From the IMG/VR virus record IMGVR_UViG_3300002835_007081, positions 1 to 41,517 of that record: a stretch of 41,517 nt of DNA; one strand, written 5' to 3'. Numbering within the stretch: position 1 is the stretch's first letter; each line of letters starts with the position of its first letter. A program made the position numbers and the translations under genes. The notes beneath the pieces were generated by a model. That model worked only from the letters and a program-made list of their open reading frames with translations. It was not told the origin of the DNA and searched no databases. Source of the DNA: a virus. Positions 3,191-41,169 of this stretch are shown piece by piece.

Positions 3191-3721
3191 ATGGTTGTTT
3201 ATGTGGACTGTGATGGCGTTCTGGGAGATTGGGTTAAGCAAGTCCATTCGTGGGCTGATAAACCCCTCAAACCTTGGAGAGCTTGGGACGGATTCTCTGA
3301 GCATGGGATTACTCAAGCAGAACTCGACGACATGATGTCATTTGTTTCGTTCTGGGAGTCGATGGAACTTTTACCTGGGGCCAAAAAACTTTGGGCCGAG
3401 ATCGGCAAACTTGCCGATTCAGCATACGTCTGCACGCGACCCTTCCCGCATCCGAATTGCCTGTACGGCAGAGCCGTTTGGTTGCAGAAGGAACTGGGTA
3501 TCAGCACCAGACATACGATTTTCATGCACGACAAATACGAACTGGCTCGCCCAGGGGCGATCCTAATCGACGACAATCTTGATAATTGTCGGCTTTTCGA
3601 GGCCAAAGGCGGCCTCGCAATCTTGTATCCTCAATCGTACAACAGTACGATTGAGGTTAAAGACAAGACGCAATACGTTCTCGATCAAATTCGTACTATC
3701 AAGGAGATGCCGAATGGCTAA
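3191..3721 (+). CDS. HAD-superfamily 5'(3')-deoxyribonucleotidase-like phosphatase
   Basis: 176 residues. HAD motif I is VDCDGV (D6 nucleophile, D8) right at the N-terminus. Motif II is near VCTRP (80-84), the motif III lysine is likely K115 (MHDK), and motif IV is LIDDNLDNC (D127, D128). This layout fits the phage/organelle 5'(3')-deoxyribonucleotidase group, which dephosphorylates nucleoside monophosphates and adjusts nucleotide pools. The ATG at 3191 is chosen because the nucleophile must lie close to the start. An upstream in-frame ATG at 3149 falls in the terminator. The SD is weak (AAAGGG, about 3177-3182). The stop overlaps the recombinase start by 8 bases. Confidence 0.8.
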   Translation: MVVYVDCDGVLGDWVKQVHSWADKPLKPWRAWDGFSEHGITQAELDDMMSFVSFWESMELLPGAKKLWAEIGKLADSAYVCTRPFPHPNCLYGRAVWLQKELGISTRHTIFMHDKYELARPGAILIDDNLDNCRLFEAKGGLAILYPQSYNSTIEVKDKTQYVLDQIRTIKEMPNG

Positions 3722-4784
3722 GAAAAAACCACTCGAAGTCCTAGAAGAGGCGGCGACGACCAAACGAAAGGAACAGAAGTTCCTTTCGCTCGGATGCCCT
3801 CTATTGAACCTTGCCGTATCCGGCGATTGGCGTAAGGGTATTATGGCAGGAACCTACGTTTTCTACGTTGGTGATTCGTCTAGCGGTAAGACGTTGGCGA
3901 CTCTGACGCTATTGGCCGAAGCGGCCAACAACCCGGACTTCGACGATTACGAATTATGGCACATCGACGCCGAAGTGGGCAACCACTTCGATTTCGAGAA
4001 GTTTTTCGGATCCAAGGCGGCAGGGCGGATTCAGGTACTGCGATCCGAACCGGGCAAGCCGATGCTACTTGAGTTTGTGTATGATTGGCTAGAAACGAAG
4101 ATCAAGGCGGGCAAAAAATTTGTCGCGATCATCGACTCGATGGACACACTGTCCAGCGAGCAGAAAGAGAAGCAGATTGCCGAGGACGCGAAGAATCGCG
4201 CCGAGGGCAAGGACATTGACGGCAACTACGGGGACGGTAAGGCGAAGATCAACAGCCAACGGCTCCCAAGAATCCTCACAATGATCGAGGACTCTGGGTC
4301 GATCTTGCTCAGCATTTCACAAGTGCGGGACAATCTCAAAGCTGGATTGTACGGGCCGAAGCATGTTCGCGGCGGCGGCCATGCCATCAAGTTCGGCGGG
4401 TCGGTTGAGATTTGGACATACCCCGGCGAGAAACTGACAAAAGAGATCAACGGCCAGAAGCGAATCATCGGCATCAACCCGGTATTCAAAGTCGAAAAGA
4501 ATCGAGTCAACGGAAGACAACGAACTGTTAGCATTCCAATCATGCCGGATTTCGGCGTGGATGCGACAGGCGCGGCAGTTGATTTCTTGCTGAAAGAAAA
4601 AGAATGGACAGCATCATCGGGCAGGATTTCCTGCCCGTTCTACGAAACCACACACTACCGCGAAGAACTCATTCGCAAGATTGAAGATGATGGCCGAGAA
4701 CAAGAGTTGTTCGAGGCTATGCAGGCTTGTTGGGACTCTATCGAGGCTCAACTAACAGTAACCCGTAAGAAAAGGTATGAATGA
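3714..4784 (+). CDS. RecA/UvsX-like recombinase
   Basis: 356 residues. It forms ATP-dependent filaments on ssDNA and catalyses strand exchange. Walker A is GDSSSGKT (53-60), Walker B is FVAIIDSMD (136-144), and a LLSISQVRDN stretch corresponds to the RecA motif with the gamma-phosphate-sensing Gln. This is followed by a Gly-rich loop-2-like segment (HVRGGGHAIKFGGS). It lacks the canonical RecA N-terminus and looks closer to phage UvsX proteins. AAGGAGAT at 3701-3708 fixes the ATG, and longer in-frame starts lie inside the HAD gene. Working partners in the window are the gp32-like SSB, the UvsY-like mediator and the Mre11/Rad50 pair. Confidence 0.92.
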   Translation: MAKKKPLEVLEEAATTKRKEQKFLSLGCPLLNLAVSGDWRKGIMAGTYVFYVGDSSSGKTLATLTLLAEAANNPDFDDYELWHIDAEVGNHFDFEKFFGSKAAGRIQVLRSEPGKPMLLEFVYDWLETKIKAGKKFVAIIDSMDTLSSEQKEKQIAEDAKNRAEGKDIDGNYGDGKAKINSQRLPRILTMIEDSGSILLSISQVRDNLKAGLYGPKHVRGGGHAIKFGGSVEIWTYPGEKLTKEINGQKRIIGINPVFKVEKNRVNGRQRTVSIPIMPDFGVDATGAAVDFLLKEKEWTASSGRISCPFYETTHYREELIRKIEDDGREQELFEAMQACWDSIEAQLTVTRKKRYE

Positions 4785-5020
4785 TGAACGCTGATGTAGC
4801 AGAACAAGCCATAGAACTACTTGACTCCTCGGCGCGGAACGTGGTGCAAAAAATTCTGGCCGCCACAACACTCACAACAGAAGAGCGGTTGGGGATGCTG
4901 ACTGCCATCACGTCAGACATTGCAAAACTTCGAGATAAGTTTGTGGCGATTAGCCACCAACTCGAATCTATTGAAGCCGTTCGCAAGCAATTGCAAGAAC
5001 TCAAGGAATCTCGCCAATGA
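4781..5020 (+). CDS. Small coiled-coil protein of unknown function
   Basis: 79 residues, starting at one of two adjacent ATGs (4781 or 4784) that overlap the recombinase stop. The C-terminal half (LRDKFVAISHQLESIEAVRKQLQELKESRQ) is a heptad-rich helix, probably a dimerising coiled coil. No enzyme motif is visible. Its position between a recombinase and a 5' nuclease, overlapping both, suggests an accessory replication or recombination factor. I do not recognise the family. Confidence 0.7.
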   Translation: MMNADVAEQAIELLDSSARNVVQKILAATTLTTEERLGMLTAITSDIAKLRDKFVAISHQLESIEAVRKQLQELKESRQ

Positions 5021-5865
5021 CCGATGACAATCGCTACGCGATCATCGACGTAAGCAATCTCGCCTACGCTCGGTGGCACACCATCCCGCCGCAGTTTTGG
5101 CGGGATGATCCAGGCACGCTGTTCAAGGCGTTGCATCAGTCCTGCAACAAGTTGCAGGACGACCTGTGCGTGGATACCTTAATTTTCTGCTTCGACGGCG
5201 GGTATGACTATCGCAAGAAGATCGACCCTGCCTACAAGCAACCTCGCAAAGAGGCGAGGTTGCAAGCACCCGAGGACGAAAAGGAACTCAGGCAGATCCT
5301 ATTTGACCAGATTGCGGCGTTCCGCGAGGTTCACTTGCCTATGATTGGAGCCAGAAATATCTTCTGGGCCAAGGGTTTTGAGGCTGACGATCTGATGGCA
5401 TCTTGCGTACTGAATCTGCCAAAGGCTCGGAAAGTCTACATCGTCAGCAATGACGAGGATCTCTACCAGATGATCGAAGGCAGTCGGGTGGTAGTCTACC
5501 GTCCGACTGCCAAAACGATTGTCAACGAGGAGGATTTCCGTAGAAAACATTCCGAGATGCCGCCATGTCTTTATGCCTCCGCAAAAGCGTGGGCAGGCTG
5601 CGCATCCGACAATGTTGTCGGACTGGCAGGCATCGGCATGGCTAAGGCTGCAAAATTTTTAATGGGAAAAGGCAACCCTGACTTCCGAAAACGCTTTACC
5701 GACAACGTACAAGTGTATGTAAAGAATATCCAGCTTACCAAACTACCCGCACCAGAAACCCCAACCTGCAATCCTGTTCCACAGGACGTTCCTTTGGATT
5801 GGTCAGTGATGGAACGAGTGTTTGACAGCGTAGCAAAGCGAACCCCGAAAGGTATCAAGAAATGA
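5017..5865 (+). CDS. 5'-3' exonuclease / flap endonuclease (FEN family)
   Basis: 282 residues. It removes RNA primers and flaps, like T4 RNase H or the PolI 5' nuclease domain. Visible elements: AIIDVSNLAY with metal ligand D11; IFCFDGG (D60); the helical-arch Tyr/Lys segment AYKQPRKEAR (72-81); GFEADDLMA (E122, D124, D125); IVSNDEDLYQ (D146, D148); and GCASDNVVGLAGIGMAKAA (D198 plus the H3TH DNA-binding turn at about 202-214). All expected acidic ligands are present, so it should be active. It overlaps genes on both sides by 4 bases (ATGA type). Confidence 0.92.
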   Translation: MTDDNRYAIIDVSNLAYARWHTIPPQFWRDDPGTLFKALHQSCNKLQDDLCVDTLIFCFDGGYDYRKKIDPAYKQPRKEARLQAPEDEKELRQILFDQIAAFREVHLPMIGARNIFWAKGFEADDLMASCVLNLPKARKVYIVSNDEDLYQMIEGSRVVVYRPTAKTIVNEEDFRRKHSEMPPCLYASAKAWAGCASDNVVGLAGIGMAKAAKFLMGKGNPDFRKRFTDNVQVYVKNIQLTKLPAPETPTCNPVPQDVPLDWSVMERVFDSVAKRTPKGIKK

Positions 5866-8031: not shown

Positions 8032-8236
8032 CTCCCTTGGGACGACAGATTCGGACGGCGTAGGTGTTGAGGATCTCACCGTCGACTGCGAGTACCAACT
8101 CCCGGGCGAAGAGCCGTTCTTTGTCATCCGAACCACCTCGGGTTGGTCATTCGACCAACCCGAAACCCTGCTGGCTTTGCTAACCACTGTCAAGGAATCC
8201 GAGAAGAAATGCCGCTGTTCGCTTCCGCAAAGCTAA
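7949..8236 (+). CDS. Small protein, unknown
   Basis: 95 residues. The central DLTVDCEYQLPGEEPFFVIRTTSGWSFDQPETLLALLTTV segment looks like a folded beta-alpha unit. The gene overlaps the previous frame by 83 bases and ends inside the start of the UDG/exonuclease gene (28 bases). The first 30 residues may not be translated if a later start is used, but no good SD is visible at a later site. No family recognised. Confidence 0.55.
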   Translation: MLNQKPKTDKDYGPSINGFQIRFTQEPNSLGTTDSDGVGVEDLTVDCEYQLPGEEPFFVIRTTSGWSFDQPETLLALLTTVKESEKKCRCSLPQS

Positions 8237-9429
8237 CCAAGTCCTTGCCCGTCGTCCCACTTTGCGGGACGTGCAAGGCAGACCGAACTTGCCAGCATCC
8301 AAAGCAGACTTGGCCGGGTAAACCGGCCAAAGTCGTCTTTGTGGTAGATAAAGCCGGTGACGATGCGCCGGATGCTCTTCTAGACGGGCAATTTGGTCGT
8401 TTAGGGACGGTTTGCAATCGCGTTGGCATAACACTCGACGCTTACCCTAAAGTACCTGCGGCGGCCTGCCCAGGAGCCTCAAACGAGGCGTGGAGGCATT
8501 GCCAACCGCTTGTGGCGAGCGAACTCGCTCGCCTCAACCCCGAAGTCGTCATTCCCTACGGGCCGAGGGCCACGCAGTCGGTCATTGGTCGGTATTGGCA
8601 ACAACCTGCCGAACTTTACGACCGATGGTACGGCGCAGTGATCCCTTGCAGGGATCTTAACGCCTGGATCTGTCCGGTGGGCCTCATGGGCGAACACAAA
8701 CGGATGCTCGACGTGTCGAGCATGTTTGAATACAAGTACCTACGAGATGCGATGCGAATATCGGGCCGCCCGTGGCCCGATGGGTGCGTACCGCTAGACA
8801 GTCGAATCCAGCAGGTCTACCACGCCCAAGAGATCATCACCCAACTGGACAAGATCACCAAGACGGCTAAGATCGCGGCGTTCGACTACGAAACCACCGG
8901 GTTAAAGCCCGAATGGGACAACCAGCTAATCGTGTCGATGTCGGTGGCATACGTCGCCGAAGGCGACGTGCATTGCATATCGTTCCCGGTATTCGCCGAT
9001 ACGCACGATGCGATCCGGCGATTCCTAGTATCAGACATTCAGAAGATCGCTGCGAACATGAAGTTCGAGGATCGGTGGAGCCGATCCAAGCTGGGGGTTC
9101 AGGTTCGTCGGTGGTGGTGGGACACAATGCAGGCCGCACACTGGGAGAACCCCAATAGCGGCATCACGGGCTTGAAATTTCAAGCGTTTGCGAAGTTGGG
9201 CGTGCCTTACTTCGCTGATGATGTGGATTCATTTTTCGAGTCCGAGGAAAATTCTCAGCGAAACAAGATATTTTCGATTCCCACGCCAAAGCTCCTGACG
9301 TATAACGGGATGGATGCCATAGTCGAATTGCTGTTAGCATCGATGCAGATGGTCGAGAATGGCATCATCAAGGAACACTTTGTACCTAGTAAGTATCTAC
9401 CAGCAAAATGCTCACAGAAATCCACCTGA
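8209..9429 (+). CDS. UDG-like domain fused to DnaQ-type 3'-5' exonuclease; polymerase domain absent
   Basis: 406 residues. The N-terminal part (about 15-190) resembles the family-4-like uracil-DNA glycosylase domain that precedes the polymerase in SPO1-type phages: cysteines in LCGTCKADRTCQHPK (C19, C22, C28), a 'VVFVVDKAGDDAPD' active-site-like region (the usual GEAPG motif is degenerate here), and NPEVVIPYGPRA. The C-terminal part is the proofreading exonuclease of family A polymerases: ExoI FDYETTG (D226, E228), ExoII NMKFED (283-288), ExoIII Y365NGMD369. The protein stops 37 residues after ExoIII, where PolA proteins continue into thumb, palm and fingers. The ATG follows AAGGA (8192-8196). 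The polymerase domain is not elsewhere in the window. Confidence 0.8.
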   Translation: MPLFASAKLTKSLPVVPLCGTCKADRTCQHPKQTWPGKPAKVVFVVDKAGDDAPDALLDGQFGRLGTVCNRVGITLDAYPKVPAAACPGASNEAWRHCQPLVASELARLNPEVVIPYGPRATQSVIGRYWQQPAELYDRWYGAVIPCRDLNAWICPVGLMGEHKRMLDVSSMFEYKYLRDAMRISGRPWPDGCVPLDSRIQQVYHAQEIITQLDKITKTAKIAAFDYETTGLKPEWDNQLIVSMSVAYVAEGDVHCISFPVFADTHDAIRRFLVSDIQKIAANMKFEDRWSRSKLGVQVRRWWWDTMQAAHWENPNSGITGLKFQAFAKLGVPYFADDVDSFFESEENSQRNKIFSIPTPKLLTYNGMDAIVELLLASMQMVENGIIKEHFVPSKYLPAKCSQKST

Positions 9430-10538
9430 CCAACTTCCAAGCTCATCGGTCACGATCATTGGCGTTCTCTCCTAATGTCAACGTCATCGTAGGCCCCACA
9501 AACGCAGGTAAATCGTCAGTCTTTCGTGCAATCCGTTGGCTTGTGGAACACAAGCCGATCACCGGATTGCAGACGTTTGACGAGCTTCATACCGAAGTGA
9601 CCATCGCCTCTGAGAGAGGCGAGGTCACTCGATTCAAGCATCCATCCGAAGGGTACGGCTACAGAGTCGCCGGACAGGCCTTCGTGGCGTGCGCCACGAA
9701 GCAACCATCCGAAGTCCAAGCTACGCTTGGACTCTCGGAAATCAACCTGCAAGGACAGCACGATGCCCCATTCTTGCTGACGTTATCCCCCGGCCAGATG
9801 GCAAAGGAACTTAACCGAATCGTAGACTTGTCGATCATCGACAAGGCAAACGCAATGGCAGCTAGCAACGCCACCCGAACCAAAGGCGAACTTTCGGCGA
9901 TGGAAACCATCGCCGAGAAGCAGAAAGCAGAACTCGACCAGATCGCCTGGGTTCCAGGCGTTCTGGCCCAGCATGAATCATTAGTAGTGTTTATGCAAGA
10001 GTTGCAGCATAAGCAAAGCCGATACACGCTGCTGTCTGACAAGACGCAGGTAATCGACGAGCTATCCAAGGCTCTGCTAGCATTAGAAAGTCTGATACTG
10101 GGCTTGCAAGCCTTGGCCGATCAGGCCAAGGATGTCGCCGACAAGCAGAGTCGCCGCAAGGCGATTCTTACGACGGTTGCACCTTTGGTCGACGTATCGG
10201 CTAAGATCAGTTTAGTTAATACTGTTGGATCAGGATTAGCTAAACTGAAAAAGCAGGGCGAGCAGATCGCCGCCAAGCGATCTTGCTTGGCCACGATTCG
10301 ATCAGTAGCCCAGCAGCTAGTCGCTATTAAGCCCATCGACGGAGACGTGGATGGGCTACTGGCAACGGGCAAGCGACTCGCGGAGTCGCGAGCCAAGCAG
10401 ACCAAGTTAGTACGATTGATGTGGAGCGTTGCAGATTGGCAAGGAACTTATCGACTCGCTTGCCAATCCGTTATCGAGTTAGAAACCAAAATCAAATTAG
10501 TGAGGGAAGTATGCCCAACGTGCAAAAGACCGCTCTAG
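9408..10538 (+). CDS. Rad50/SbcC N-terminal half: Walker A, coiled coil, zinc hook
   Basis: 376 residues. It begins with the RecF/SMC-type start (LTEIHLTNFQAH). Walker A is GPTNAGKSS at 29-37, and the Q-loop region is NLQGQHDAPFLL (about 113-124). From about residue 150 it is a long Ala/Leu/Lys/Glu/Gln-rich coiled coil. It ends in a perfect zinc hook C369-P-T-C372-KRPL with the stop four residues later. No signature motif or Walker B is present. In a normal SbcC those would follow the returning coiled-coil arm. Here they are encoded separately at 11816-12331. The start overlaps the exonuclease gene by 22 bases. Confidence 0.85.
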   Translation: MLTEIHLTNFQAHRSRSLAFSPNVNVIVGPTNAGKSSVFRAIRWLVEHKPITGLQTFDELHTEVTIASERGEVTRFKHPSEGYGYRVAGQAFVACATKQPSEVQATLGLSEINLQGQHDAPFLLTLSPGQMAKELNRIVDLSIIDKANAMAASNATRTKGELSAMETIAEKQKAELDQIAWVPGVLAQHESLVVFMQELQHKQSRYTLLSDKTQVIDELSKALLALESLILGLQALADQAKDVADKQSRRKAILTTVAPLVDVSAKISLVNTVGSGLAKLKKQGEQIAAKRSCLATIRSVAQQLVAIKPIDGDVDGLLATGKRLAESRAKQTKLVRLMWSVADWQGTYRLACQSVIELETKIKLVREVCPTCKRPL

Positions 10539-11416
10539 CCATCCTGTGTTCGGATCTCCACTTGCGGGAAACTGCTCCGAGTGCCAGGGCTGAAAAGGAT
10601 TGGTACGAGGTCATGGAGAACCACCTGAACGCATTGGGGAAAGCATCATCTCGTTGGGGTGTTCCTATCGTCTGTGCCGGTGACGTGTTCGACCGATGGA
10701 ACCCATCGAGCGAACTCGTCCGATTCGCGATCCAGAAGCTACCCCCACTGAACGCTATTCCCGGCCAACACGATCTTCGCTACCACGACTACGAAAGTAG
10801 GCTCCGAGGAGCCTACGGATGTCTGGTCGCTGCGGAGATCCTATGGGATATACCCGTAGGTCGGTGGGATGGTGTCCCTGCCGAGATGGTGCAAGTGTGG
10901 GCCATGCCTTGGGGTAGGTGGGAGCCGCCGACCAAGGCTGAAAATTTCTATGGAATCAAGCTGGGAGTCCTGCACAAGTACGCATGGAGCAACCAGTTCA
11001 ACTGCCACGCCAAAGCCGACGAGTCGTCTCGATTCGAGCGACTCTACCCCAACCTCGATGCTATGATTATCGGAGACAATCATATCCCTTGGATGCTACC
11101 CAACGTAATGAACCACGGCGGGTTCATTCCGCAGAACGCCGATCAGAAATCCTTAGTACCACACTATGGTGTTCTGATGTCTGACGGCTCCATCGAGAAG
11201 CATCCCTACGATGTTCCCGAGCCAATATGGCTCGAATCGTGGCAACCGCAGGTCGAGGAGTCCAAGATCGCTTCCGAGGTCATTCAAGAGTTGCAGGATC
11301 TCCAACACACTGGTGATTCATTCCTAGAAACACTAGAGCGTTCCGTCGATGCTGCCCCGCCCCGAACTGCCCATATCCTTAGGCAGATGCTTGCAGATTT
11401 GAAACAAGATGGCTGA
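10511..11416 (+). CDS. Mre11/SbcD-like nuclease
   Basis: 301 residues. Metallophosphoesterase motifs are in order: CSDLHL (D15, H17), AGDVFDRW (D58, D61), PGQHD (H87, D88; Gln replaces the usual Asn of GNHD/E), GVLHKY, and GDNHIPW near residue 190 (the usual GHxH appears as GDNH). With Rad50 this enzyme resects ends and opens hairpins. It lies between the two Rad50 half-genes, overlapping the N-half by 28 bases and the next gene by 8. Start at 10511 because GAGG precedes it at about 10502-10505; the 5' in-frame extension is a shadow of the Rad50 half. The two altered motifs may tune activity but look conservative. Confidence 0.83.
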   Translation: MPNVQKTALAILCSDLHLRETAPSARAEKDWYEVMENHLNALGKASSRWGVPIVCAGDVFDRWNPSSELVRFAIQKLPPLNAIPGQHDLRYHDYESRLRGAYGCLVAAEILWDIPVGRWDGVPAEMVQVWAMPWGRWEPPTKAENFYGIKLGVLHKYAWSNQFNCHAKADESSRFERLYPNLDAMIIGDNHIPWMLPNVMNHGGFIPQNADQKSLVPHYGVLMSDGSIEKHPYDVPEPIWLESWQPQVEESKIASEVIQELQDLQHTGDSFLETLERSVDAAPPRTAHILRQMLADLKQDG

Positions 11417-11669
11417 TTTTGTCTGCGTAATCTGTAAAAACTTGGTCTACCGTATTCCAGAAGTACCTAGCCCAGACGTACAATACATTGCCTGCCCCTA
11501 CGGAGGGGCAGGCAATAAACCATGCACACTGAAAGCCAGGAGAACCGATTGTGGACTATGCGGAAATTCAAAAGAAATTAGAGTCAGCCAAGACTCTGCG
11601 AACGAGGTTGGAGGGGCAGAAGGAGCAACTACTCCGCAACCTCAAGGATCTCGGACACGAGACGATTGA
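11409..11669 (+). CDS. Small zinc-ribbon-like protein
   Basis: 86 residues with two CxxC knuckles, C6-V-I-C9 and C48-G-L-C51, plus C29 and C39, spaced like a zinc ribbon. The ATG overlaps the Mre11 stop (ATGGCTGA). The last 40 residues overlap the next gene in another frame for 119 bases, but the second knuckle lies inside that overlap, so the overlap itself is probably coding. It may be an accessory zinc protein of the Mre11/Rad50 cluster (inference from position). Confidence 0.5.
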   Translation: MADFVCVICKNLVYRIPEVPSPDVQYIACPYGGAGNKPCTLKARRTDCGLCGNSKEIRVSQDSANEVGGAEGATTPQPQGSRTRDD

Positions 11670-11815: not shown

Positions 11816-12331
11816 ATGGCGGTCGAAAGCAGCAAGTCGTCTATCGACGACTTGCGAGAACGATACGAAGCCGCCTTGGCGGCCAAAGAGATTATCCAAC
11901 AAGTCAGCATGGAGTGCCAGGAGGCTTGCCAGAAACGCATCGGGTACGTTGTTACCCGATGTTTGCAGGCGGTGTTCCCTGACCAAGGGCTTACGTTTCG
12001 GCTCGTATTCGAGCAGAAACGGGGCCAGACAGAAGTGCGCGGCGTCCTCGTCGATGCGGAAGGTCACGAGCTTGACCCCCTCCAATCGTGCGGCGGCGGA
12101 ATTTTAGACGTGGCGGCTTTCGGCTTGCGGCTCGCTTGCCTTATGCTACAACGTCCTCAACCCGCTCGGGTTCTGATTCTGGACGAACCGTTCCGGTTCG
12201 TCTCGTCGCACTACCGCAGCAACGTCCGCGCACTACTGTCTGAGCTTTCACAGGAGATGGGTGTCCAGATCATCATGGTCACTCACATTGAAGAATTCAT
12301 GGACTTCGATAGCAGATTGGAGATTGCGTAA
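11816..12331 (+). CDS. Rad50/SbcC C-terminal half: ABC signature, Walker B, H-loop
   Basis: 171 residues from the ATG at 11816. A short N-terminal coiled coil (about 8-40) leads into the ATPase lobe: signature-type S91-C-G-G-G followed by the helix ILDVAAFGLRLACLML, Walker B VLILDEP (D123, E124), a D-loop-like FVSSHYR, and the H-loop in MVTH157. No Walker A is present; that is in the gene at 9408. The frame is open upstream to 11666, and an ATG at 11768 or a GTG at 11786 would add 16 or 10 residues. None has a clear SD, so coupling from the 11799 stop is likely. The stop overlaps the next ATG. Confidence 0.83.
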   Translation: MAVESSKSSIDDLRERYEAALAAKEIIQQVSMECQEACQKRIGYVVTRCLQAVFPDQGLTFRLVFEQKRGQTEVRGVLVDAEGHELDPLQSCGGGILDVAAFGLRLACLMLQRPQPARVLILDEPFRFVSSHYRSNVRALLSELSQEMGVQIIMVTHIEEFMDFDSRLEIA

Positions 12332-12737: not shown

Positions 12738-13191
12738 GAAAAAGAAAAACCCACCTGCCGAGATATATGTGTGCCACTGGTCGCCCGGCAAGCACCCTCC
12801 TATGGGATTCTATAGCTACAGAGCAGACCGAAAGATCAGGACGCAGGAGGAAGCCTACGCTTTGCAGCGTAGGCTTCTGAAAAAAGCCAAGAGGATGCTA
12901 GACGCGAAGCGTCCTTTGAACGCTTCGCATTTCATGCAAGCTCTGCTAGCTATTGAGCCCGGTGCGTGGGTTCGCGAGTATGGCAGGGCGATCAGTAACA
13001 CCCGAATGGTGTCGTTTAAGGCGCGGTCGGAGCAAACCCGCGACGAGATGCTCAGAACCGTAAACGACCTCAGCAAAGTCCATAATGTTGTAAGCTCTGT
13101 GGAGCAAAGAGATGGGTTTTTTATCCACAGTTACGAGGCCCACATGATACAGAAGACCATCAGGATTTACCCAAAGGAGTATTGCAAGTGA
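12727..13191 (+). CDS. Basic unknown protein
   Basis: 154 residues from tandem ATGs at 12727/12730. It is Lys/Arg-rich, with a helical segment QRRLLKKAKRMLDAKRPL (about 43-60) and a C-terminal beta-like region. Two strong perfect inverted repeats (12850-12877 and 12904-12928) lie in its coding sequence, so the mRNA would be unusually folded just after the start. AAGGAG near its end serves the next gene. Function unknown. Confidence 0.65.
   Translation: MMSKKKKNPPAEIYVCHWSPGKHPPMGFYSYRADRKIRTQEEAYALQRRLLKKAKRMLDAKRPLNASHFMQALLAIEPGAWVREYGRAISNTRMVSFKARSEQTRDEMLRTVNDLSKVHNVVSSVEQRDGFFIHSYEAHMIQKTIRIYPKEYCK
12850..12877. repeat. Perfect inverted repeat, 12-bp stem, 4-nt loop (intragenic)
   Basis: GAAGCCTACGCT (12850-12861), loop TTGC, AGCGTAGGCTTC (12866-12877). 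A second hairpin, 9 bp with a 7-nt loop, follows at 12904-12928. Both are inside a coding sequence; see the finding on genome-wide hairpins. Confidence 0.95.
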
Positions 13192-30457: not shown

Positions 30458-30918
30458 CTAGCCTGCTCCTTTTTCAGTCGTTCAAGTGACATTGCGCCGA
30501 CAATTTCGTATGTCTTACCATTTTCCTGGATGAGAAAATGCGGCGTAACTGGAAAGGCGTGATCGTAGCAAATGCCGACCTTGTATCCGGCTTGTTCAAA
30601 CTTTGGCCGCTGTACGGCCCACCACTGGTCGCAAGCCGGGCACGGCTTGCGAGAGAACATGATGACTTCTTTGAGTGCCTCGGCTCGCGGTGCTTGCGAA
30701 GGAGGTGCGAGATTGCATTCGCAATTCTCGCCACAGTTGCACACATCTACGCACTTGCAGACAGGGTTCATGCAAGCGATGGTGAACGGGCCGATCTTGA
30801 TCGGCTCGTTCGGCTCGGGCTTTTTGGTAAGGTTCTTCGCGAACATGAACAGAACTGCTAGCACCGCGAAGGTGAACAGAACGCCGACTACTGTTTCTCT
30901 GGGCGTCTCGTTGCTCAT
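30454..30918 (-). CDS. Membrane-anchored Cys-rich protein with a glutaredoxin/thioredoxin-like CPAC motif
   Basis: 154 residues from the ATG at 30918. TM helix at about 10-28 (VVGVLFTFAVLAVLFMFA). Then a short Cys cluster (about 48-71): IACMNPVCKCVDVCNCGENC, continuing ECN, with the CxC/CxxC spacing of bacterial metallothioneins. Then IMFSRKPCPACDQWW, a thioredoxin/glutaredoxin-like beta-alpha unit with the CxxC active site and 'TPHFLIQENG' downstream, the cis-Pro-like strand. The longer ORF from 30963 overlaps the papain gene's end. It may be a periplasmic redox or metal-handling protein active at lysis or in tail-disulphide formation; function inferred only. Confidence 0.6.
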   Translation of the reverse strand: MSNETPRETVVGVLFTFAVLAVLFMFAKNLTKKPEPNEPIKIGPFTIACMNPVCKCVDVCNCGENCECNLAPPSQAPRAEALKEVIMFSRKPCPACDQWWAVQRPKFEQAGYKVGICYDHAFPVTPHFLIQENGKTYEIVGAMSLERLKKEQAR

Positions 30919-31802
30919 AATTTGCTCCCCACAAAGACCCAGAAGTCGTGATACTTCGTGCAAACAAATGCGTCTTGCATTGTGAACAATCCGAATCCTC
31001 CTTCACCCCATCCTTGACTGTTGGTTGGCCCGTACATCGGGTCTTGGCTAGGCCCCCAAGAGTTCTCAATGTCCGGGTGAACCAGATCGTTGCCGCCAAC
31101 CCACTTACCAGAGTGGAACAAGGTGGCGTGGTTGCCAATGCTTCCGCCTTGGACGGCGTAGCCGTTCCTCAGTCGCATCGAGTTGCCGCCAACATGCCAA
31201 GCGTGGATGACTTGATGATCTCTCGCGAGCGCGCTCGCGAGAGCGATCTTGAAGGTGTTGTAGTTGTCGACCGGTAGCTTGTACGCCTCGAAAGTGGTGT
31301 AGCTTGTAGCGGCGTCTCGCGCCACTTCCATCCACTTCGCTGGCAACTGGCTTTTGAGATAGATGTTGTCGGGGATTGTGTATTTGTCTTGACCTTTGCT
31401 CAAAACACGGGGAGCGATCCCCTGTTTTGAGAAAGCCATAGCATCCGCAAGCAGTGCCCCCTGATCCCTGCCTCGGTTAATGTGCATGTACAAGTAGCAA
31501 TCGCTCAACGGAACATGCACAAGACCGTCTAAGTCTCGGCTATTGTGGAACCCGCTAACTGTAGCAGACGCCGCACACTTCCCGAGACTAGCTTGGTTCA
31601 ACACCCACTTGAATCGGCGTTGTCGCATCTGCTTGTAGACATCACCCTTGAGGGACTTCTCAATGTCTTTCGGCTCAAGGTAGAAGTTCTCCCCGTACAC
31701 TGGCATATCAGCCACGAGCGCACGCTCGGCGGGTGTCGGAGGGATGCAACCTACGGAAACCGTAGTCCCGTCTGGGAGTTTGAAGAATTCGGTTTCGCTC
31801 AT
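30915..31802 (-). CDS. Papain-fold (C1A-like) cysteine peptidase, candidate lysis enzyme
   Basis: 295 residues. Papain catalytic architecture in order: NQASLGKCAASATVSGF (oxyanion Gln70, nucleophile Cys76), GGSIGNHATLFH (His225), and DIENSWG (Asn247) followed by GWGEGGFGLF, which copies the papain 'NSWG..WG..G'. The N-terminal 60 residues could be a propeptide. Phages usually lyse with amidases or muramidases, so a cysteine peptidase here is unusual. It may cut peptidoglycan cross-links, or a protein surface layer, which would fit a host with a proteinaceous wall. No signal peptide is seen. Confidence 0.78.
   Translation of the reverse strand: MSETEFFKLPDGTTVSVGCIPPTPAERALVADMPVYGENFYLEPKDIEKSLKGDVYKQMRQRRFKWVLNQASLGKCAASATVSGFHNSRDLDGLVHVPLSDCYLYMHINRGRDQGALLADAMAFSKQGIAPRVLSKGQDKYTIPDNIYLKSQLPAKWMEVARDAATSYTTFEAYKLPVDNYNTFKIALASALARDHQVIHAWHVGGNSMRLRNGYAVQGGSIGNHATLFHSGKWVGGNDLVHPDIENSWGPSQDPMYGPTNSQGWGEGGFGLFTMQDAFVCTKYHDFWVFVGSKL
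31220..31243. repeat. 24-bp perfect palindrome (intragenic)
   Basis: CTCTCGCGAGCG (31220-31231) directly followed by its reverse complement (31232-31243), inside the papain-like gene. Another inverted repeat, 9 bp plus 5 bp with one bulge, lies at 31399-31431. Confidence 0.95.
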
Positions 31803-32179
31803 TTCAGGGACTCCTCAAAGGAACTCTTCCATGCCACCACTTTGCGAACCTTAGTGATCTTCCCTTCGGGAAGATCGACATAAGCCACCAAAGGCGGCTC
31901 GATGTTCTTTGCTTTTGCTGCTTCGAGAATGGGCTTCGCCCATTCGTCGTCTTTGTCGACATCGCGGAACCCAACCAATTTGTTGGCTTCAACAAATTGG
32001 TTGGCGTTGCGAATCGCGATAGTCTGATCGACCGTAGCAGCAGTCTTTTCGCTGACTAGCACAACGGTCGACCCCGCTATGTTGGCAAAACTGCCCCTTC
32101 CAAGGGGCAGCTTGTCTCCGAACAGCAGGAACAAACCGCCAGCAATCATCAGCCATGGGCCGAGGCGGTTCTCGTTCAT
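31799..32179 (-). CDS. Single-TM protein, unknown
   Basis: 126 residues from the ATG at 32179 (MNENRLGPWLMIAGGLFLLFGDKLPLG), with GGGAG upstream on the - strand. One TM helix at about 7-22; the remainder is soluble with a helical/beta mix. It lies in a run of small membrane-protein genes between the major capsid and papain-like genes. A perfect 15-bp inverted repeat (31971-32004) is in its coding sequence. Confidence 0.65.
   Translation of the reverse strand: MNENRLGPWLMIAGGLFLLFGDKLPLGRGSFANIAGSTVVLVSEKTAATVDQTIAIRNANQFVEANKLVGFRDVDKDDEWAKPILEAAKAKNIEPPLVAYVDLPEGKITKVRKVVAWKSSFEESLK
31971..32004. repeat. Perfect inverted repeat, 15-bp stem, 4-nt loop (intragenic, longest found)
   Basis: CCAACCAATTTGTTG (31971-31985), loop GCTT, CAACAAATTGGTTGG (31990-32004). 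It is wholly inside a coding sequence and has no T-run, so it is not a terminator. Confidence 0.97.
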
Positions 32180-32181
32180 GC

Positions 32182-33242: not shown

Positions 33243-34319
33243 TTAGCTGAAGTGGACGATGCCGCAGTTGGAGTTGATGTCAACCTTCATCTGAGGAACC
33301 ATCATCGCCATCACTCGGAACTTCTCAAGCAAGCCGCCACGCTCTTGCCATTGGACTGTTTGAATGTCCATTCCGATGATGGTGCGAACAGTGCTGGAAT
33401 CTTCTTGAACGAGCAACAGTTGGTTGCCGGTCAAGTAGTCACAAATTTCGACACTCGAAATTTGTGGGATCTGCTCGATCATCCGTTGCAACGAGGTCGA
33501 ATCGTAGCTGGTGGAGAACGGACGCAGCATGTATTGCAGGAAGCCCGTCGAGTACCAGAGCTTGAACGGCCCGTAGTGGAACTTGTCGTAAGCCAGTTGG
33601 ATCATCGACAAGACGTTGGTGTAGGTATCGTTTGGAACCCAACCAACACCTGCGGGGTTGGCTACCGAACCGGTGAGCCGGTTCGGGAAGTTGGTCAACC
33701 CATAGAGGGTCGCCCCGCCGAAGGTGAACGTGCCGAAGGTTCCCAAATGGAGCTTCTCAGCTTCTTCTGCAACCTTGATCGCAGCCAATTCCAACATCGA
33801 AGTGTCGAGTGGCGTATTGCCGTTCCGACTGGTAGCCAACTGACGACTCGACATGGTGACTTCTTTGCTGATGATCGGCAAAGGAAGGTTGACCAAATCG
33901 TAGGTCGGTCGGTCGTTGTCACCAGGAGACAGAGCGTCCATCGAAACGCGAGCCGCGCTGATGTCCGATTGTCGTTCGTATTGGTAAACCGTCTTGCCGA
34001 ACCCGTTCGGCAAGTTGACCGCGAGGCCAGAGCTTCGCAGCCAGTTGACGATCTTGAGTCGCTTACGCGCCGCCTTGACGACTACGTCATCGACGTACTC
34101 CCATTCGTCCTTACGCAAGGTAGCACCTGCGTTGGTGACGTATGCGTTGACAATCGGATTGCCGTTGCTATCGACCTTACCAGTGTTGTGGTTGATGTAG
34201 GATCGACCATCTTCACCTACGAATGGGCGAAGAATGTTGGTGTCGAATCCACTCGCCAAAAGTTGGGACGAAATGCTCCCCGACGCTTGGCTATTCAAAA
34301 CGAATTCAATGTTTTCCAT
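33243..34319 (-). CDS. HK97-fold major capsid protein (encapsulin-like type)
   Basis: 358 residues. The region 'LRKDEWEYVDDVVVKAARKRLKIVNWLRSSGL' then 'KTVYQYERQSDISAARVSMDA' and 'LPLPIISKEVTMSSRQLATSRNG' matches a widespread environmental capsid/encapsulin-like family (P-domain spine helix start, E-loop-type strands). No separate N-terminal scaffold is visible, in keeping with the separate protease-scaffold gene upstream. The following terminator suits a protein needed in hundreds of copies. A perfect 12-bp hairpin lies at 33440-33466. Confidence 0.88.
   Translation of the reverse strand: MENIEFVLNSQASGSISSQLLASGFDTNILRPFVGEDGRSYINHNTGKVDSNGNPIVNAYVTNAGATLRKDEWEYVDDVVVKAARKRLKIVNWLRSSGLAVNLPNGFGKTVYQYERQSDISAARVSMDALSPGDNDRPTYDLVNLPLPIISKEVTMSSRQLATSRNGNTPLDTSMLELAAIKVAEEAEKLHLGTFGTFTFGGATLYGLTNFPNRLTGSVANPAGVGWVPNDTYTNVLSMIQLAYDKFHYGPFKLWYSTGFLQYMLRPFSTSYDSTSLQRMIEQIPQISSVEICDYLTGNQLLLVQEDSSTVRTIIGMDIQTVQWQERGGLLEKFRVMAMMVPQMKVDINSNCGIVHFS
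33440..33466. repeat. Perfect inverted repeat, 12-bp stem, 3-nt loop (in the capsid gene)
   Basis: CACAAATTTCGA (33440-33451), loop CAC, TCGAAATTTGTG (33455-33466). Other perfect stems in this gene: 33665-33686 (9 bp, loop 4) and 33993-34014 (10-bp arms, 2-nt centre). Confidence 0.96.
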
Positions 34320-35252: not shown

Positions 35253-35951
35253 TTTGACCTTCTCATTGACTATAAGAGGTTTTGATTCTCGAACTTCTTG
35301 TATTCGATTCTCTAATAGTTTACCCTCTGCTTCAGTCGCCGCCAAATTTTCAGCAGATTGGGTATTGACATCTGCGGCTTGAGAGTCTTTGTTGACCAGC
35401 AACCCCGCGCCGTCTTTAAGCGAACAAGCACCCACACCATTGACGATTACCGCAAGGTGATCGGGACGAAAATTACGGGCCTTACCCGTAAATTCCTTAC
35501 CGTTGTACTGACCAGAGAACACTTCTTTATCAACGAAAAGACCGGTAGAAACTTCCATCGGCTCTTGCTTCGCAAGAGCCGTTTTGATAGCTTGGCCGCC
35601 GGGCACTACATCCAGTCGCGTTTCGTCAAACCACGCTTCCGCACGAAGTTTTTTCGTGCGGGCGTTCCAAGAGGTGTTGAGAACCATGCCAACTCCAAAA
35701 TCCTCAATGGATTCGGGGAGACATCCCGATACGAACTGGTCACCCCGTTTGGGGTGACCTACGGTGATGGGCTTGTGATTCCAAGAAGCGACGGACTTGG
35801 TAATATCGGACTGTTCGTAAAGAATAGGCCCTTGATTACCGGCGAACACGCCTTCAACGATCATTGCTACGGGAGCGACGAGGTAGCTTCGACCCGCCAG
35901 TGTTTTCTTCTGAACTTTGCTCAGGGCTAGATTCGCTACCAATGTTTCCAT
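34779..35951 (-). CDS. Fused prohead protease and scaffold (DUF2213-like)
   Basis: 390 residues from the ATG at 35951, which is preceded by AGGAA (9-nt gap). The N-terminal half (about 1-200) matches the DUF2213-type phage protease: GVFAGNQGPILYEQSD, the 'ITVGHPKRG' region, 'EPMEVSTGLFVD', and 'GKARNFRPDHLAVI'. The conserved H and S in 'GHP' and 'VSTG' are likely catalytic. The C-terminal half (about 234-390) is helical, Ala/Pro-rich and scaffold-like. An internal start at 35252 may yield scaffold alone. The ORF extends to 36098, but there it lies in the frame shadow of the upstream gene. Confidence 0.78.
   Translation of the reverse strand: METLVANLALSKVQKKTLAGRSYLVAPVAMIVEGVFAGNQGPILYEQSDITKSVASWNHKPITVGHPKRGDQFVSGCLPESIEDFGVGMVLNTSWNARTKKLRAEAWFDETRLDVVPGGQAIKTALAKQEPMEVSTGLFVDKEVFSGQYNGKEFTGKARNFRPDHLAVIVNGVGACSLKDGAGLLVNKDSQAADVNTQSAENLAATEAEGKLLENRIQEVRESKPLIVNEKVKMKRDEILAVLGDEHKDFVTNLSDVQVEALAKLQRTVTVEVPVANEAPKNLDELLASAPADVKTKIEEAFAVNTAHRDGLIEQIVANEKNQFSKEELAVLPTATLSKMAVFAVNAAPAPTASAPASAPLYAGSAAPIEKPSASAVKGFLAPSTFSAKA
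35559..35581. repeat. Perfect inverted repeat, 10-bp stem, 3-nt loop (in the protease gene)
   Basis: CGGCTCTTGC (35559-35568), loop TTC, GCAAGAGCCG (35572-35581). Other perfect stems in this gene: 35639-35661 (9 bp, loop 5) and 35738-35759 (9 bp, loop 4). Confidence 0.95.
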
Positions 35952-37783: not shown

Positions 37784-39198
37784 AGGATTCCCAGTCTGGT
37801 TCGTTGTTTATCAAGCATGGAGAAAGCACCCGAGCTTGCGTCTACTTGGTCGTCGTGCTTCCCGTTGGGGAAGTATGCGAGTTCTTCGAGGTAGGGGGTA
37901 TTAAAAGCTCCCTTTACCATGTAGACATTCCCGGCATTGACCTGCACAGAGAATGTGTCTGCTCGGAGTTCCTTCTTGCCGGAGGCTAGGTTAGGGTAAA
38001 CGCGAAAGCCGGACAGCCTCTTGACGGAATCCCGTACAGAATCCACGCCCGATGACCCCGGCTCACGCTCAATTCCAATTCGGACGGATTTCCCATCCCG
38101 GTTCGCACAAGCGACGATTTGTCGTTCACGCTCATCGGATGACCATTGGCCCCGACAGATGTCAAGGATCCAATATGAGCCATCCTTATGTAACCCCATT
38201 TTAACACCAACCGACCAGTCGCCGCCACCTTTGGTCGCAGCTTTGTCCCAGTATCGGACAATCTTGGAAAAGGCATCGATCCCCGGCGGATACTCAACAA
38301 TGTTGATTCGCTCAGGTTTGAACATACCCCCACCTAGCGGGATTGGATCTTGGAGGATCTGACCTGAGTAGCCGAACTGTCCAAGCTCGACCTGCATCCG
38401 GTCGAGCGTCGGACGAGATAGTCGCACAGGGTCGAATAAGCCATTCTGATAGTAGTCTTGTAAGCTGGCTGGTTTGACTGCTGGGGTGATCTCACCCGGC
38501 AGGCAAATGTGCCGAACAGCGGCTTCTCCCCGTTCGATGTAAAGGGTGGACGGGTCGTCTTGGTGCAATCTCTGCATGACCACGAAGGTAGGCGTAAGGT
38601 CTTTGTTGACCTTACGCGAAGAGATGGTTTCCTTACACCAGTTTTTGGCGGTTTCCAAGTCGGCTTTTGATCGAACTTCCCTCGGGTTGATCGGATCGTC
38701 GATGACGATGATGTGTGCGTGCATCCCCGTGACCGATCCCCCAACGGCGACGGCGTACCGGTCGCCGTTATAATTGTTGGCCCAGTGACTCTTCGAGTTA
38801 GTATCCTTGCTGAGTTGGATATTTGGAAACGTCTTCTGGTACAGCGGAGACTCTACGATCTGCCTGGACTTGCCAGACAAGTCCAGGGCCAGAGCGTCGG
38901 TATAGGACGCACCGATCATCCGAAGGTGGGGCATGCGAGTCCAGGCCCAAGGTACGAGCATCACGCTGAACAGCGTTGACTTGCTCGTACCGGGGGAGAT
39001 GTTTACCAGAAGATCGTTGGGCGAGTTCTCTCCTCGAAAAACTCGTTCCATTGCCTCTTGTATTGTGTCACAGAGGAACTTAATATGCCAGTTGCATACC
39101 AAGGGGTCTTTGACGATGGTGTGCCAGAAATGCTTAACGAACTCGAAATACGAGGCGCGGCAAGTCGAGGCGAGTAGGTCGTAATAGTCAAATTTCAC
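37780..39198 (-). CDS. Terminase large subunit
   Basis: 472 residues from a GTG at 39198 with AGGG 7 nt upstream. The ATPase domain has a Walker A-like SPGTSKST (68-75), Walker B HIIVIDD (162-168) and the motif III stretch near VVMQRLHQDD. The nuclease domain has VRYWDKAAT, GIEREPGSSG and HDDQVDA carrying the metal-binding acids. It pumps DNA into the prohead through the portal and cuts the concatemer. I see no small terminase subunit next to it; it may be outside the window or one of the unknown right-hand genes. An earlier ATG at 39243 would add 15 residues. Confidence 0.93.
   Translation of the reverse strand: MKFDYYDLLASTCRASYFEFVKHFWHTIVKDPLVCNWHIKFLCDTIQEAMERVFRGENSPNDLLVNISPGTSKSTLFSVMLVPWAWTRMPHLRMIGASYTDALALDLSGKSRQIVESPLYQKTFPNIQLSKDTNSKSHWANNYNGDRYAVAVGGSVTGMHAHIIVIDDPINPREVRSKADLETAKNWCKETISSRKVNKDLTPTFVVMQRLHQDDPSTLYIERGEAAVRHICLPGEITPAVKPASLQDYYQNGLFDPVRLSRPTLDRMQVELGQFGYSGQILQDPIPLGGGMFKPERINIVEYPPGIDAFSKIVRYWDKAATKGGGDWSVGVKMGLHKDGSYWILDICRGQWSSDERERQIVACANRDGKSVRIGIEREPGSSGVDSVRDSVKRLSGFRVYPNLASGKKELRADTFSVQVNAGNVYMVKGAFNTPYLEELAYFPNGKHDDQVDASSGAFSMLDKQRTRLGIL
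38863..38887. repeat. Perfect inverted repeat, 10-bp stem, 5-nt loop (in the terminase gene)
   Basis: CCTGGACTTG (38863-38872), loop CCAGA, CAAGTCCAGG (38878-38887). A second, 10 bp with a 6-nt loop, lies at 38592-38617 in the same gene. Confidence 0.95.
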
Positions 39199-39269: not shown

Positions 39270-39710
39270 ATGACAAACGCAGCAGAAGAGATGATCGAAC
39301 CGCCAACCAGACAAGAGATGGCGTCCGACGAGAAATTGGCACGCCGCATCTTGACTCGAACCAAAGATCAAGACATCCGAATACTCTGCAAGAATTTCAT
39401 CAAGTGGGTGGCACAAGTAGATCGGTACGCCGATTCGATCTACCCCTGCTTCTCGATGATGGAGAAGGAGATTCGTCAGCACGGTGCGTCGTTTTCTTTG
39501 GAAAACGACGGAATCTGGAGGCTACGATCTTCTAAAGGGAAGATCGTAGTGACTGGAACAAGTCTGAAAGACTTGTTCGTGAACCTGATTCTCTGGCAAG
39601 GGGATTGGCCAGAGGACGAGTTTCTAGAAGATTGCGCTACCGAGGAGGACGCGATCTTTGAGCCAGATAGGCGAAAAACACCGAAAAACAGAGATAGTAC
39701 CAACGTATAA
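39270..39710 (+). CDS. Unknown protein
   Basis: 146 residues, first gene of the right-hand + block; AAGGA is 4 nt before the ATG. A helical N-terminus, basic middle (EKLARRILTRTKDQDIRIL), an acidic stretch (EDEFLEDCATEEDAIFE), and a basic tail. Function is unknown. Size and position would suit an early regulator or small terminase, but no HTH is recognised. Its coding region contains three perfect hairpins within 92 bp. Confidence 0.65.
   Translation: MTNAAEEMIEPPTRQEMASDEKLARRILTRTKDQDIRILCKNFIKWVAQVDRYADSIYPCFSMMEKEIRQHGASFSLENDGIWRLRSSKGKIVVTGTSLKDLFVNLILWQGDWPEDEFLEDCATEEDAIFEPDRRKTPKNRDSTNV
39487..39578. repeat. Cluster of three perfect hairpins in one gene
   Basis: 39487-39510 (10 bp, loop TTTG), 39522-39549 (11 bp, loop TAAAGG), 39556-39578 (10 bp, loop GAA). 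All three lie back-to-back inside the 146-residue gene; a weaker 7-bp stem follows at 39591-39614. Confidence 0.96.
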
Positions 39711-39758
39711 CATGAGGATAGCCCGTTTCTAGGGCATACCCATGTACGAAGGATTACT

Positions 39759-40364: not shown

Positions 40365-40813
40365 TGCCAAGAGCCAAGAAAGAAATCCAGACGCCACAGC
40401 CAGACTGGCTGTGGCGTTATCGCGTAACCGTGTTGCGAGTCGTCGACGGCGATACCGTCGAACTGCTTTTCGACCAAGGCATGGGAAATTGGTCTATGGA
40501 GACTTGTCGGCTCTATGGCATAAACGCTGTGGAGTTGCGACAAGACGGCGGCGAGGCCGCTAAAACGAACTTGGAGGCCGAAATAGAGGCATCTTCTATA
40601 AGCAGAGGCAAGTTCAATCTCCCTGTGGTCTGGGCCAGAACGATCAAAAACCGCGCCGAATCCAAAGAGATCCAAGAGAAGTACGGTCGATATCTTGTAG
40701 AACTCTACTCAACGGCAGAGGAGATGGATCGAGGCTTCGCGCATTCGATCAATCAGGGTATGATCGAGAACGGTTTTGCCAAGCCGTATTACGGCATCGG
40801 AAAGGTAAAATAG
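40364..40813 (+). CDS. Staphylococcal nuclease-like (SNase/TNase) protein
   Basis: 149 residues. It has the SNase start 'WLWRYRVTVLRVVDGDTVEL' (Asp of DGDT is a Ca2+ ligand), 'CRLYGINAVELRQDGGEAAK' (like SNase R.......E), and C-terminal 'EKYGRYLVEL......SINQGMIENGFAKPY'. It is probably a non-specific Ca2+-dependent nuclease for host DNA degradation or nucleotide scavenging. I cannot confirm every catalytic residue. A perfect 12-bp hairpin covers 40389-40415 near its start. Confidence 0.78.
   Translation: MPRAKKEIQTPQPDWLWRYRVTVLRVVDGDTVELLFDQGMGNWSMETCRLYGINAVELRQDGGEAAKTNLEAEIEASSISRGKFNLPVVWARTIKNRAESKEIQEKYGRYLVELYSTAEEMDRGFAHSINQGMIENGFAKPYYGIGKVK
40389..40415. repeat. Perfect inverted repeat, 12-bp stem, 3-nt loop (in the SNase-like gene)
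   Basis: ACGCCACAGCCA (40389-40400), loop GAC, TGGCTGTGGCGT (40404-40415). It starts 25 bp into the gene, so it could affect translation initiation. Confidence 0.96.
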
Positions 40814-40815
40814 AA

Positions 40816-41169
40816 ATGCTACATCCTAGTATTTTGTGTACTGTCTGCCAGTATTACCACACAAAGCTCCAGCTTGTTCGGAGCTTTTTGCAGATGGTTC
40901 CCGAGGATACTCGGGAACCTATGACCAGTCCGCAGTACAAATACTCGTATGGGGTGGCGTTTGACCAGCCCTCGATGAGCTTTGAACTGGTCGGATATAG
41001 GGACTGCATTGGCAGAAAGTGGGATTATCAGTATGTTGAGGGCGGTGTCGTGCTGTGTATGCAAGGCAGTTCGGAGTCTATGAAGGCTCCGAACCTCTCA
41101 GATTTGGTGGTTTTTTACTCGGAAACCGAGTTTTCCGAGTGGTTAGGAAAGATTTCAGATGGCAGATAA
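40816..41169 (+). CDS. Unknown protein
   Basis: 117 residues, starting 3 nt after the nuclease stop. The N-terminus is short and Cys-containing (LCTVCQYY), the rest is beta-like with aromatics. No motif recognised. Its DNA contains 40863-40887 (8 bp, loop 9, then TT; it could act as a weak terminator) and 40896-40919 (10 bp, loop 4). The end overlaps the next ATG. Confidence 0.55.
   Translation: MLHPSILCTVCQYYHTKLQLVRSFLQMVPEDTREPMTSPQYKYSYGVAFDQPSMSFELVGYRDCIGRKWDYQYVEGGVVLCMQGSSESMKAPNLSDLVVFYSETEFSEWLGKISDGR

Follow-up and report, generated by a model that had tools for sequence, protein, structure and literature searches.

The 41,517-nucleotide stretch analysed here (the window, positions 1 to 41,517 of the IMG/VR virus record IMGVR_UViG_3300002835_007081) is a fragment of a tailed-phage genome with terminase, portal, capsid and tape-measure genes, and it contains many perfect inverted repeats which could fold into short hairpins, most of them inside genes. 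It is likely that the genomes of the phage clade represented by the window are under selection for short, perfect DNA hairpins irrespective of the sequence of their stems. Judged from alignments of the relatives, pairing in these hairpins is selected; the hairpins are gained by point substitution and are kept by purifying selection together with compensation.

Abundance of hairpins in the window and its relatives

A mechanical search for perfect stems (10 bp or more, loops of 0 to 8 nt) returned 35 hairpins in the window, where 0.36 are expected from base composition, and 31 of these are located in predicted genes (the gene models are our own predictions, by which at least one gene, at 15998-19090, was missed). 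In 200 shuffles, in which synonymous codons were permuted within genes, the genes of the window contained 0.80 such stems on average and never more than 5, against the 31 observed. Codon shuffling and inspection of relatives had been named as checks in an initial annotation of the window made from its sequence; the shuffles fail to reproduce the counts, and in the relatives the hairpins are more numerous and often kept at the same codons. Contigs G004, G006 and G007 contain 120, 125 and 99 in-gene stems, while 1.4, 1.4 and 1.5 were obtained in codon shuffles. Taken together, the window and its close relatives carry 7.4 to 38 stems of at least 10 bp per 10 kb with a median of 26 (36 loci, overlapping contigs included), and 55 control loci from more distant phages and contigs of metagenome-assembled genomes (MAGs) carry 0 to 3.5 with a median of 0.5, which makes the median density of the rich group about 50 times that of the controls. 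The highest density was found in L002 and includes five copies of one tandem repeat, the next highest is 37.0 per 10 kb (L034), and the strain of the window is the poorest of the hairpin-rich group. The same hairpin sites recur in contigs from separate metagenomes.

Most members of the clade have about 2-4 hairpins per kb, with stems mainly of 9-12 bp, few of them longer than 13 bp, and loops mainly of 2-4 nt. The unlikeness of the stem sequences described for the window was also seen in 15 contigs of the clade, where at least 360 hairpins with stems of 9 bp or longer were non-homologous by our similarity filter. Genes on either strand carry hairpins, and the noncoding density is of the same order as the coding density, with a wide spread. 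Regular spacing was not found, the spacing of the hairpins being random or clustered. Around start codons, between roughly 30 nt upstream and 45 nt downstream, hairpins look scarce, though the bins are noisy. As a separate observation, genes on the + strand have about twice the hairpin density of genes on the - strand (2.7-3.5 versus 1.3-1.9 per kb; loci L066-L068 and L071-L076 of G004, G006 and G007).

A sister phage is represented by the contigs G002 and G003, which come from the same sample and are probably one genome; nucleotide identity is about 71-73% over the 1.9 and 6.7 kb that could be aligned. Five stems were counted in the 39 kb of G002 and seven in the 26.6 kb of G003, and since these counts are low in comparison with the dense relatives, the trait, strong within one clade, is already weak in the adjoining lineage. 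Within the clade, hairpin density is 3.07 per kb in genes common with the sister and 2.0-2.1 per kb in other genes. At sites that are perfect in at least two diverged relatives, the lineage of the window (G001, loci L058-L061) keeps 18 of 89 hairpins, other rich contigs keep 52-100%, and the sister contigs keep 0 of 56 and 0 of 27. G001 is a 61-kb IMG/VR contig that is 99.4-99.6% identical to the window over the aligned parts, and because its RecA-like and portal proteins are close to those of the dense phages, the low retention is read as a loss within its lineage. The lineage of the window apparently is a natural case of hairpin decay.

Selection on pairing

The comparisons used here are not independent, as the lineages share ancestry, and the confidence intervals (CIs) were derived from bootstraps over gene families. 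At third codon positions within stems 2,834 differences were counted against 7,361 expected, which is 0.38 of the codon-matched background; the ratio ranged from 0.22 to 0.52 by pairing class and from 0.00 to 0.55 by lineage, with 0.50 for G001. Divergence of the loops was equal to that of the flanks or higher. When stems were compared with the sister, no slowing was seen (0.591 in stems, 0.554 in flanks). Where the two arms together differed at exactly two positions, pairing was still perfect in 127 of 249, 49 of 120 and 15 of 34 comparisons in the three identity classes (41-51%). Compensated variants of the 15-bp stem at 31971-32004 (loop of 4 nt) are carried by relatives, and the outer pairs of the 10-bp stem at 40896-40919 (loop of 4 nt) differ, with compensation, in L002 and L003.

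Breaking and repair of stems were analysed with outgroup-polarised states in 14 representative contigs. Synonymous changes breaking a 10-bp stem numbered 106 instead of the 329.5 expected (ratio 0.32, CI 0.22-0.45), and repairs of single mismatches numbered 17 instead of 5.2 (3.28, CI 1.82-5.21). Seven of these repairs are nonsynonymous, where 2.0 are expected. Across stem lengths of 8 to 11 bp the repair ratio was 2.6-3.7 (lowest CI 1.08-4.79).

Conversion of one arm by the other should, by our own derivation, undo half of the new mutations and double the other half, and would thus leave the mean rate of a site unchanged if both partners are free to vary. As the partner in coding sequence often is not free to change, the test was limited to pairs in which both sites are fourfold-degenerate third positions. 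At these sites 87 differences were found against 390.8 expected (0.22, CI 0.12-0.48; 21 gene families), so that arm conversion alone fails to explain the low divergence. At every length between 9 and 15 bp, DNA folding energies are spread more narrowly than in random stems, and stems rich in AT are longer; both would follow from selection for stability.

Origin and turnover of the hairpins

In alignments of the terminase, capsid and clamp genes, genes of constant or almost constant length gain and lose hairpins, from which it follows that the hairpins are made by substitution. Many sites are shared at the same codons among lineages, some are private to one lineage, and at some positions two alternative, shifted hairpins are found in different lineages. 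In the terminase gene, the hairpin at 38592-38617 (10 bp, loop of 6 nt) is present in six of seven representatives, and at the place of the one at 38863-38887 (10 bp, loop of 5 nt) two relatives have a shifted 11-bp hairpin. The hairpin at 3765-3788 in the RecA-like gene (10 bp, loop of 4 nt) has 12-16 bp in 7 of the 10 other representatives shown, and the outer pair of the perfect palindrome at 31220-31243 (12 bp, loop of 0 nt) was perfected within the lineage of the window. Among 54 cleanly polarised gains, 43 were single changes and 11 involved two or more changes in the arms.

DNA or mRNA as the selected molecule

If the hairpins acted in mRNA, G-U pairs should be tolerated better than A-C mismatches. 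Among 133 distinct variants with a single mismatch, 44 had G-U and 37 A-C on the coding strand, with 22 versus 23 away from the stem ends. An alignment-free count gave 15 G-U versus 23 A-C in coding DNA; in noncoding DNA the numbers, not assignable to a transcribed strand, were 7 G-T and 1 A-C. GNA made up 21 of 122 effective triloops with 9.2 expected (2.3-fold), and its complement TNC 24 with 7.6 expected (3.2-fold); the hairpin at 35559-35581 (10 bp), for instance, has the loop TTC, read as GAA on the opposite strand. The RNA tetraloop types showed no enrichment, with 3 GNRA (5.1 expected) and 2 UNCG (2.4 expected) in 129 effective tetraloops. The observed-to-expected ratio of GNA and TNC loops in six rich contigs was 1.3 on 5-bp stems, rose up to 3.2 on stems of 9-10 bp and was 2.6-2.7 above that length, and in control phages it was 1.00 on 5-bp, 0.95 on 6-bp, 0.55 on 7-bp (70 loops) and 0.44 on 8-12-bp stems (35 loops). 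On 6-7 bp stems of the sister, GNA or TNC accounted for 14 of 35 triloops (4.8 expected), four of the 14 being copies of one repeat. No clear strand preference of GNA loops was found along the genome, and a search of the window against Rfam 15 gave no match at the gathering threshold.

GNA was reportedly identified by Yoshizawa in 1997 as the loop of extraordinarily stable DNA mini-hairpins. The same description of GNA is found in the available part of another publication (PMC6479982). Because G-U is tolerated no better than A-C, GNA is enriched on both strands and the RNA tetraloops are not, selection would act on pairing in DNA and not in mRNA, and the selected molecule looks like DNA. Hairpins selected in mRNA and hairpins selected in single-stranded DNA had both been proposed initially; selection on pairing in DNA is supported by the data on divergence, compensation, repair and triloops, selection on mRNA is not.

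Alternative explanations

Several points weigh against selection on pairing as the whole explanation. The loop was inverted in 8 of 474 homologous pairs of perfect hairpins, at 6 loci, which indicates that template switching or hairpin inversion acts here too; the hairpin at 11832-11855 (10 bp, loop TATC) has the inverted loop GATA in one relative. Nonsynonymous changes that break stems were not clearly fewer than expected (46 versus 53.8, CI 0.55-1.18), and part of the pattern could also arise if paired DNA mutates less and arms are converted at the same time. The sister is above zero, with 2 and 5 in-gene stems against about 0.3 expected, and has a mild excess of 6-8 bp stems (18 stems of 7 bp in G002, 6.4 in codon shuffles), which perhaps is a weaker form of the same trait. 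Finally, the analysis yielded no function, host or binding protein, and the formation of hairpins in vivo is a prediction from sequence.

Template switching or hairpin-templated arm conversion, which was among the causes offered in the initial annotation, would perfect quasi-palindromes and produce hairpins devoid of function. Repair outpacing the background agrees with such a process, as do the numbers of 137 distinct 11-pair stems with one inner mismatch and 179 perfect stems of at least 11 bp (loops of 2-7 nt; different contig sets), in which the mismatched form is no commoner. The process has left its trace in the loop inversions, since spacer or loop inversion is described as a footprint of template switching in the available parts of two papers (PMC8604942, PMC8794818), and conversion was proposed for perfect coding palindromes of Nematomorpha (PMC6649704, available part). 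However, only 3 of the 11 multi-change gains were confined to one arm, where about 3.8 are expected if changes are independent and 11 if a single switch made them; the doubly synonymous rate, which unbiased conversion would leave unchanged, was reduced as given above; and stems above 12-13 bp are few, though longer ones should convert more easily. Template switching looks like a side process in these phages, and a mutational origin of the hairpins as a whole is unlikely. A mutational ratchet, by which paired bases mutate less (e.g. because single-stranded phage DNA is damaged outside stems) and hairpins pile up, would account for stems diverging less and loops slightly more than the flanks. 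Under it, repair should proceed at the background rate at most, but was about three-fold above it and included the excess of amino-acid-changing repairs, so that we regard the ratchet as improbable.

Selection of the hairpins as mRNA structure, for stability, RNase control or pausing, would suit their location, as most are in genes, could fold in the mRNA and involve genes of both strands. The tolerance of mismatches and the loop types reported above speak against it, as do the apparent scarcity around start codons in the noisy bins and the noncoding density of the same order as the coding density; this explanation is very improbable. Insertions of mobile palindromic elements, intrinsic terminators or an assembly artefact are hardly credible. 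Small dispersed palindromes are known from bacteria and some intergenic hairpins of the clade are repeated, as in the five copies of L002, but stems are mostly unrelated in sequence, most hairpins are inside genes, and the length of the terminase, capsid and clamp genes stays the same or nearly so during turnover. The ungapped alignments speak against insertion as well as artefact; the recurrence of identical sites in separate metagenomes and the lack of Rfam matches in the window also count against this group of explanations. For intrinsic terminators in particular, no gene-end position was apparent, 31 of the 35 hairpins being inside genes, and there was no clear peak at stop codons (T runs were not scanned).

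Comparison with known systems

Comparisons with published systems refer to the parts of the cited sources that were available. As in the mitochondrial coding palindromes of Nematomorpha (PMC6649704), many perfect inverted repeats in conserved protein genes are gained and lost between species, and codon phases with more wobble freedom are commoner. The nematomorph repeats reach 284 bp and the authors lean to conversion without function (PMC6649704), while in the phages stems are mostly of 9-12 bp, loops are short and selection on DNA pairing is measurable. An excess of short inverted repeats was reportedly attributed to template switching by Ladoukakis and Eyre-Walker in 2008. Short perfect arms, short spacers, spacer inversion and conserved repeat regions are shared with the inverted repeats ascribed to template switching (PMC8604942, PMC8794818); in contrast to these, the phage hairpins reach about 50-fold the control density in the median, belong to one clade and show a pattern of divergence beyond arm conversion alone.

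The promoters of the virion RNA polymerase of phage N4 contain a DNA hairpin that extrudes under supercoiling by gyrase (PMC4496689). Extrusion requires a C-G closing pair and the loop bases 5'G and 3'A, and the variable stem bases of these promoters matter only for pairing (PMC4496689). The loop type needed for extrusion in N4 is the type enriched here (PMC4496689), and features that could be of N4 type occur in a subset of the hairpins: 45 of the 122 effective triloops are GNA or TNC, and 53 of the 122 have C as the left closing base. In contrast to the three promoters of N4, which have conserved stem bases (PMC4496689), the denser genomes of the clade have well over a hundred unrelated hairpins each, mostly inside genes, and no shared stem motif appeared in the composition table of the 360 non-homologous hairpins. 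A giant virion RNA polymerase was not named among the proteins scanned, which cover part of the genome, and no search was aimed at it. Cruciform-prone inverted repeats of E. coli likewise have perfect arms and a short spacer (PMC6060812). Those repeats are overrepresented at the ends of genes, close to start codons and in promoters, and many are terminators (PMC6060812), whereas the hairpins described here run through genes.

Possible role of the hairpins

Selection for short DNA hairpins would be understandable if these fold on either strand of single-stranded phage DNA during replication or recombination, or under negative supercoiling. Folded hairpins might shield or organise the DNA or be handled by a structure-specific protein, and in negatively supercoiled phage DNA short GNA hairpins would extrude as in N4. 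A role in shielding or organising single-stranded DNA is put forward tentatively. The pressure probably comes from the host or the infection setting, because the trait is weak in the syntenic sister, whose replication genes are the same, and seems to be vanishing from the lineage of the window.

The idea of genome-scale ordered structure is familiar for RNA viruses. Searches of the open-licence PubMed Central literature brought up no comparable structure described for the DNA of a double-stranded DNA phage. With a chance we place slightly below even, a clade of double-stranded DNA phages has evolved ordered DNA secondary structure on the scale of the genome, as a physical adaptation that comes and goes with the host; each denser genome would then contain well over 100 mostly unrelated hairpins selected for stability on either strand, e.g. 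in order to shield single-stranded replication intermediates from a host nuclease or sensor. Selection on DNA folding appears to shape synonymous sites throughout the genome of a double-stranded DNA virus. Phages that are rich in hairpins, losing them or poor in them, with syntenic genes, make the role of the hairpins and the factor demanding them testable.

Gene content and host

Apart from the structural genes, the window encodes clamp loader, clamp, RecA-like, 5'-3' exonuclease, Rad50-like and Mre11-like (metallophosphatase) proteins. A link of the hairpins to Mre11/Rad50, as considered initially, does not hold as far as the presence of the genes is concerned: the hairpin-poor sister contig G002 has both in synteny, and since the core replication and recombination genes are shared with the sister and arranged alike, their presence is not the cause of the trait. 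In comparison with the sister, the Rad50-like N-terminal (37% identity) and Mre11-like (43%) proteins are among the more diverged of the core replication and recombination proteins, which may or may not be relevant. Gene gain was considered as a cause and rejected, the comparison of protein families between rich and poor contigs having singled out no gene with an obvious role. Ten dense contigs have a variable family of 244-407 aa that is absent from G001 and G002. Phage proteins that could meet hairpins are an SSB-like protein, a PDDEXK endonuclease matching a RusA-like PHROG, and the Mre11/Rad50-like proteins.

No nucleotide match to positions 1-25000 of the window was found among the INPHARED phages, and database matches of the terminase, capsid and RecA-like proteins were all below 60% identity. 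One scan of genome contigs gave eight relatives of the capsid protein with 31-50% identity in MAGs of several phyla. One contig of a Planctomycetaceae MAG carries both a capsid gene (42-43%) and a RecA-like gene (41%); in the phylum of this MAG a capsid match was found in 4 of 392 genomes, the MAG included, and the other three were weak. This contig is a hint to the host and not a host call. Genes for tRNAs are few.

Positions of the hairpins and further features of the window

The initial annotation listed 25 stems, of which 24 are perfect at the coordinates given there; the one placed at 40389-40415 was off by two bases and is located at 40391-40417, with 13 bp and a loop of 1 nt. The remaining listed stems (length, loop) are 3629-3656 (12 bp, 4 nt), 5238-5263 in the 5'-3' exonuclease gene (10 bp, 6 nt), 8138-8163 (11 bp, 4 nt), 11487-11516 (13 bp, 4 nt), 12850-12877 (12 bp, 4 nt), 14458-14480 and 14808-14830 (each 10 bp, 3 nt), 15333-15357 (12 bp, 1 nt), 16734-16757 and 27548-27571 (each 11 bp, 2 nt), 28430-28453 (10 bp, 4 nt), 28633-28657 (11 bp, 3 nt), 33440-33466 in the capsid gene (12 bp, 3 nt), 39487-39510 (10 bp, 4 nt), 39522-39549 (11 bp, 6 nt) and 39556-39578 (10 bp, 3 nt), besides those described in the preceding sections. 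The statement that 21 of the 25 have loops of 3-4 nt holds strictly for 16, and 21 is reached if the five stems with loops of 0-2 nt are counted with their innermost pairs open.

The number of 25 was too low, as 11 stems had been overlooked: 2407-2428 (10 bp, 2 nt), 2742-2769 (12 bp, 4 nt), 5139-5160 in the 5'-3' exonuclease gene (10 bp, 2 nt), 9680-9701 (10 bp, 2 nt) and 9894-9916 (10 bp, 3 nt) in the Rad50-like gene, 15944-15973 (12 bp, 6 nt), 26081-26102 (10 bp, 2 nt), 26509-26535 (12 bp, 3 nt), 30629-30652 (10 bp, 4 nt), 33993-34014 in the capsid gene (10 bp, 2 nt), and a perfect stem at 22999-23029 which, with its 11-nt loop, is outside the 35. The latter is the only one between 16,757 and 26,081, in agreement with the sparse stretch noted initially.

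DNA polymerase A looks split. The gene at 8218-9429 of the window encodes an exonuclease-type protein (weak Pfam match below the cut-off; PHROG DNA polymerase), and a separate gene for the polymerase domain (L058:13936-15237; DNA_pol_A, 2e-49) is located about 9 kb from the exonuclease-type gene in G001. The Rad50-like protein is seemingly encoded in an N-terminal and a C-terminal piece (9408-10538 and 11816-12331) flanking the Mre11-like gene (10511-11416), the C-terminal piece having a weak match to an AAA model below the cut-off. A putative CsrA-type regulator was recognised by eye at L058:6421-6615, and a putative LysR-type helix-turn-helix protein is encoded at L058:12757-13533 (Pfam HTH_1, below the cut-off). 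At 28000-28440 of the window, in-frame tandem repeats of about 126 bp are located in the gene of a 706-aa protein, as indicated by repeated matches to L005. The gene at 15998-19090 encodes a 1,030-aa Thr- and Cys-rich protein with long Thr/Ser runs and repeated Cys motifs, which by eye we take to resemble planctomycete proteins.

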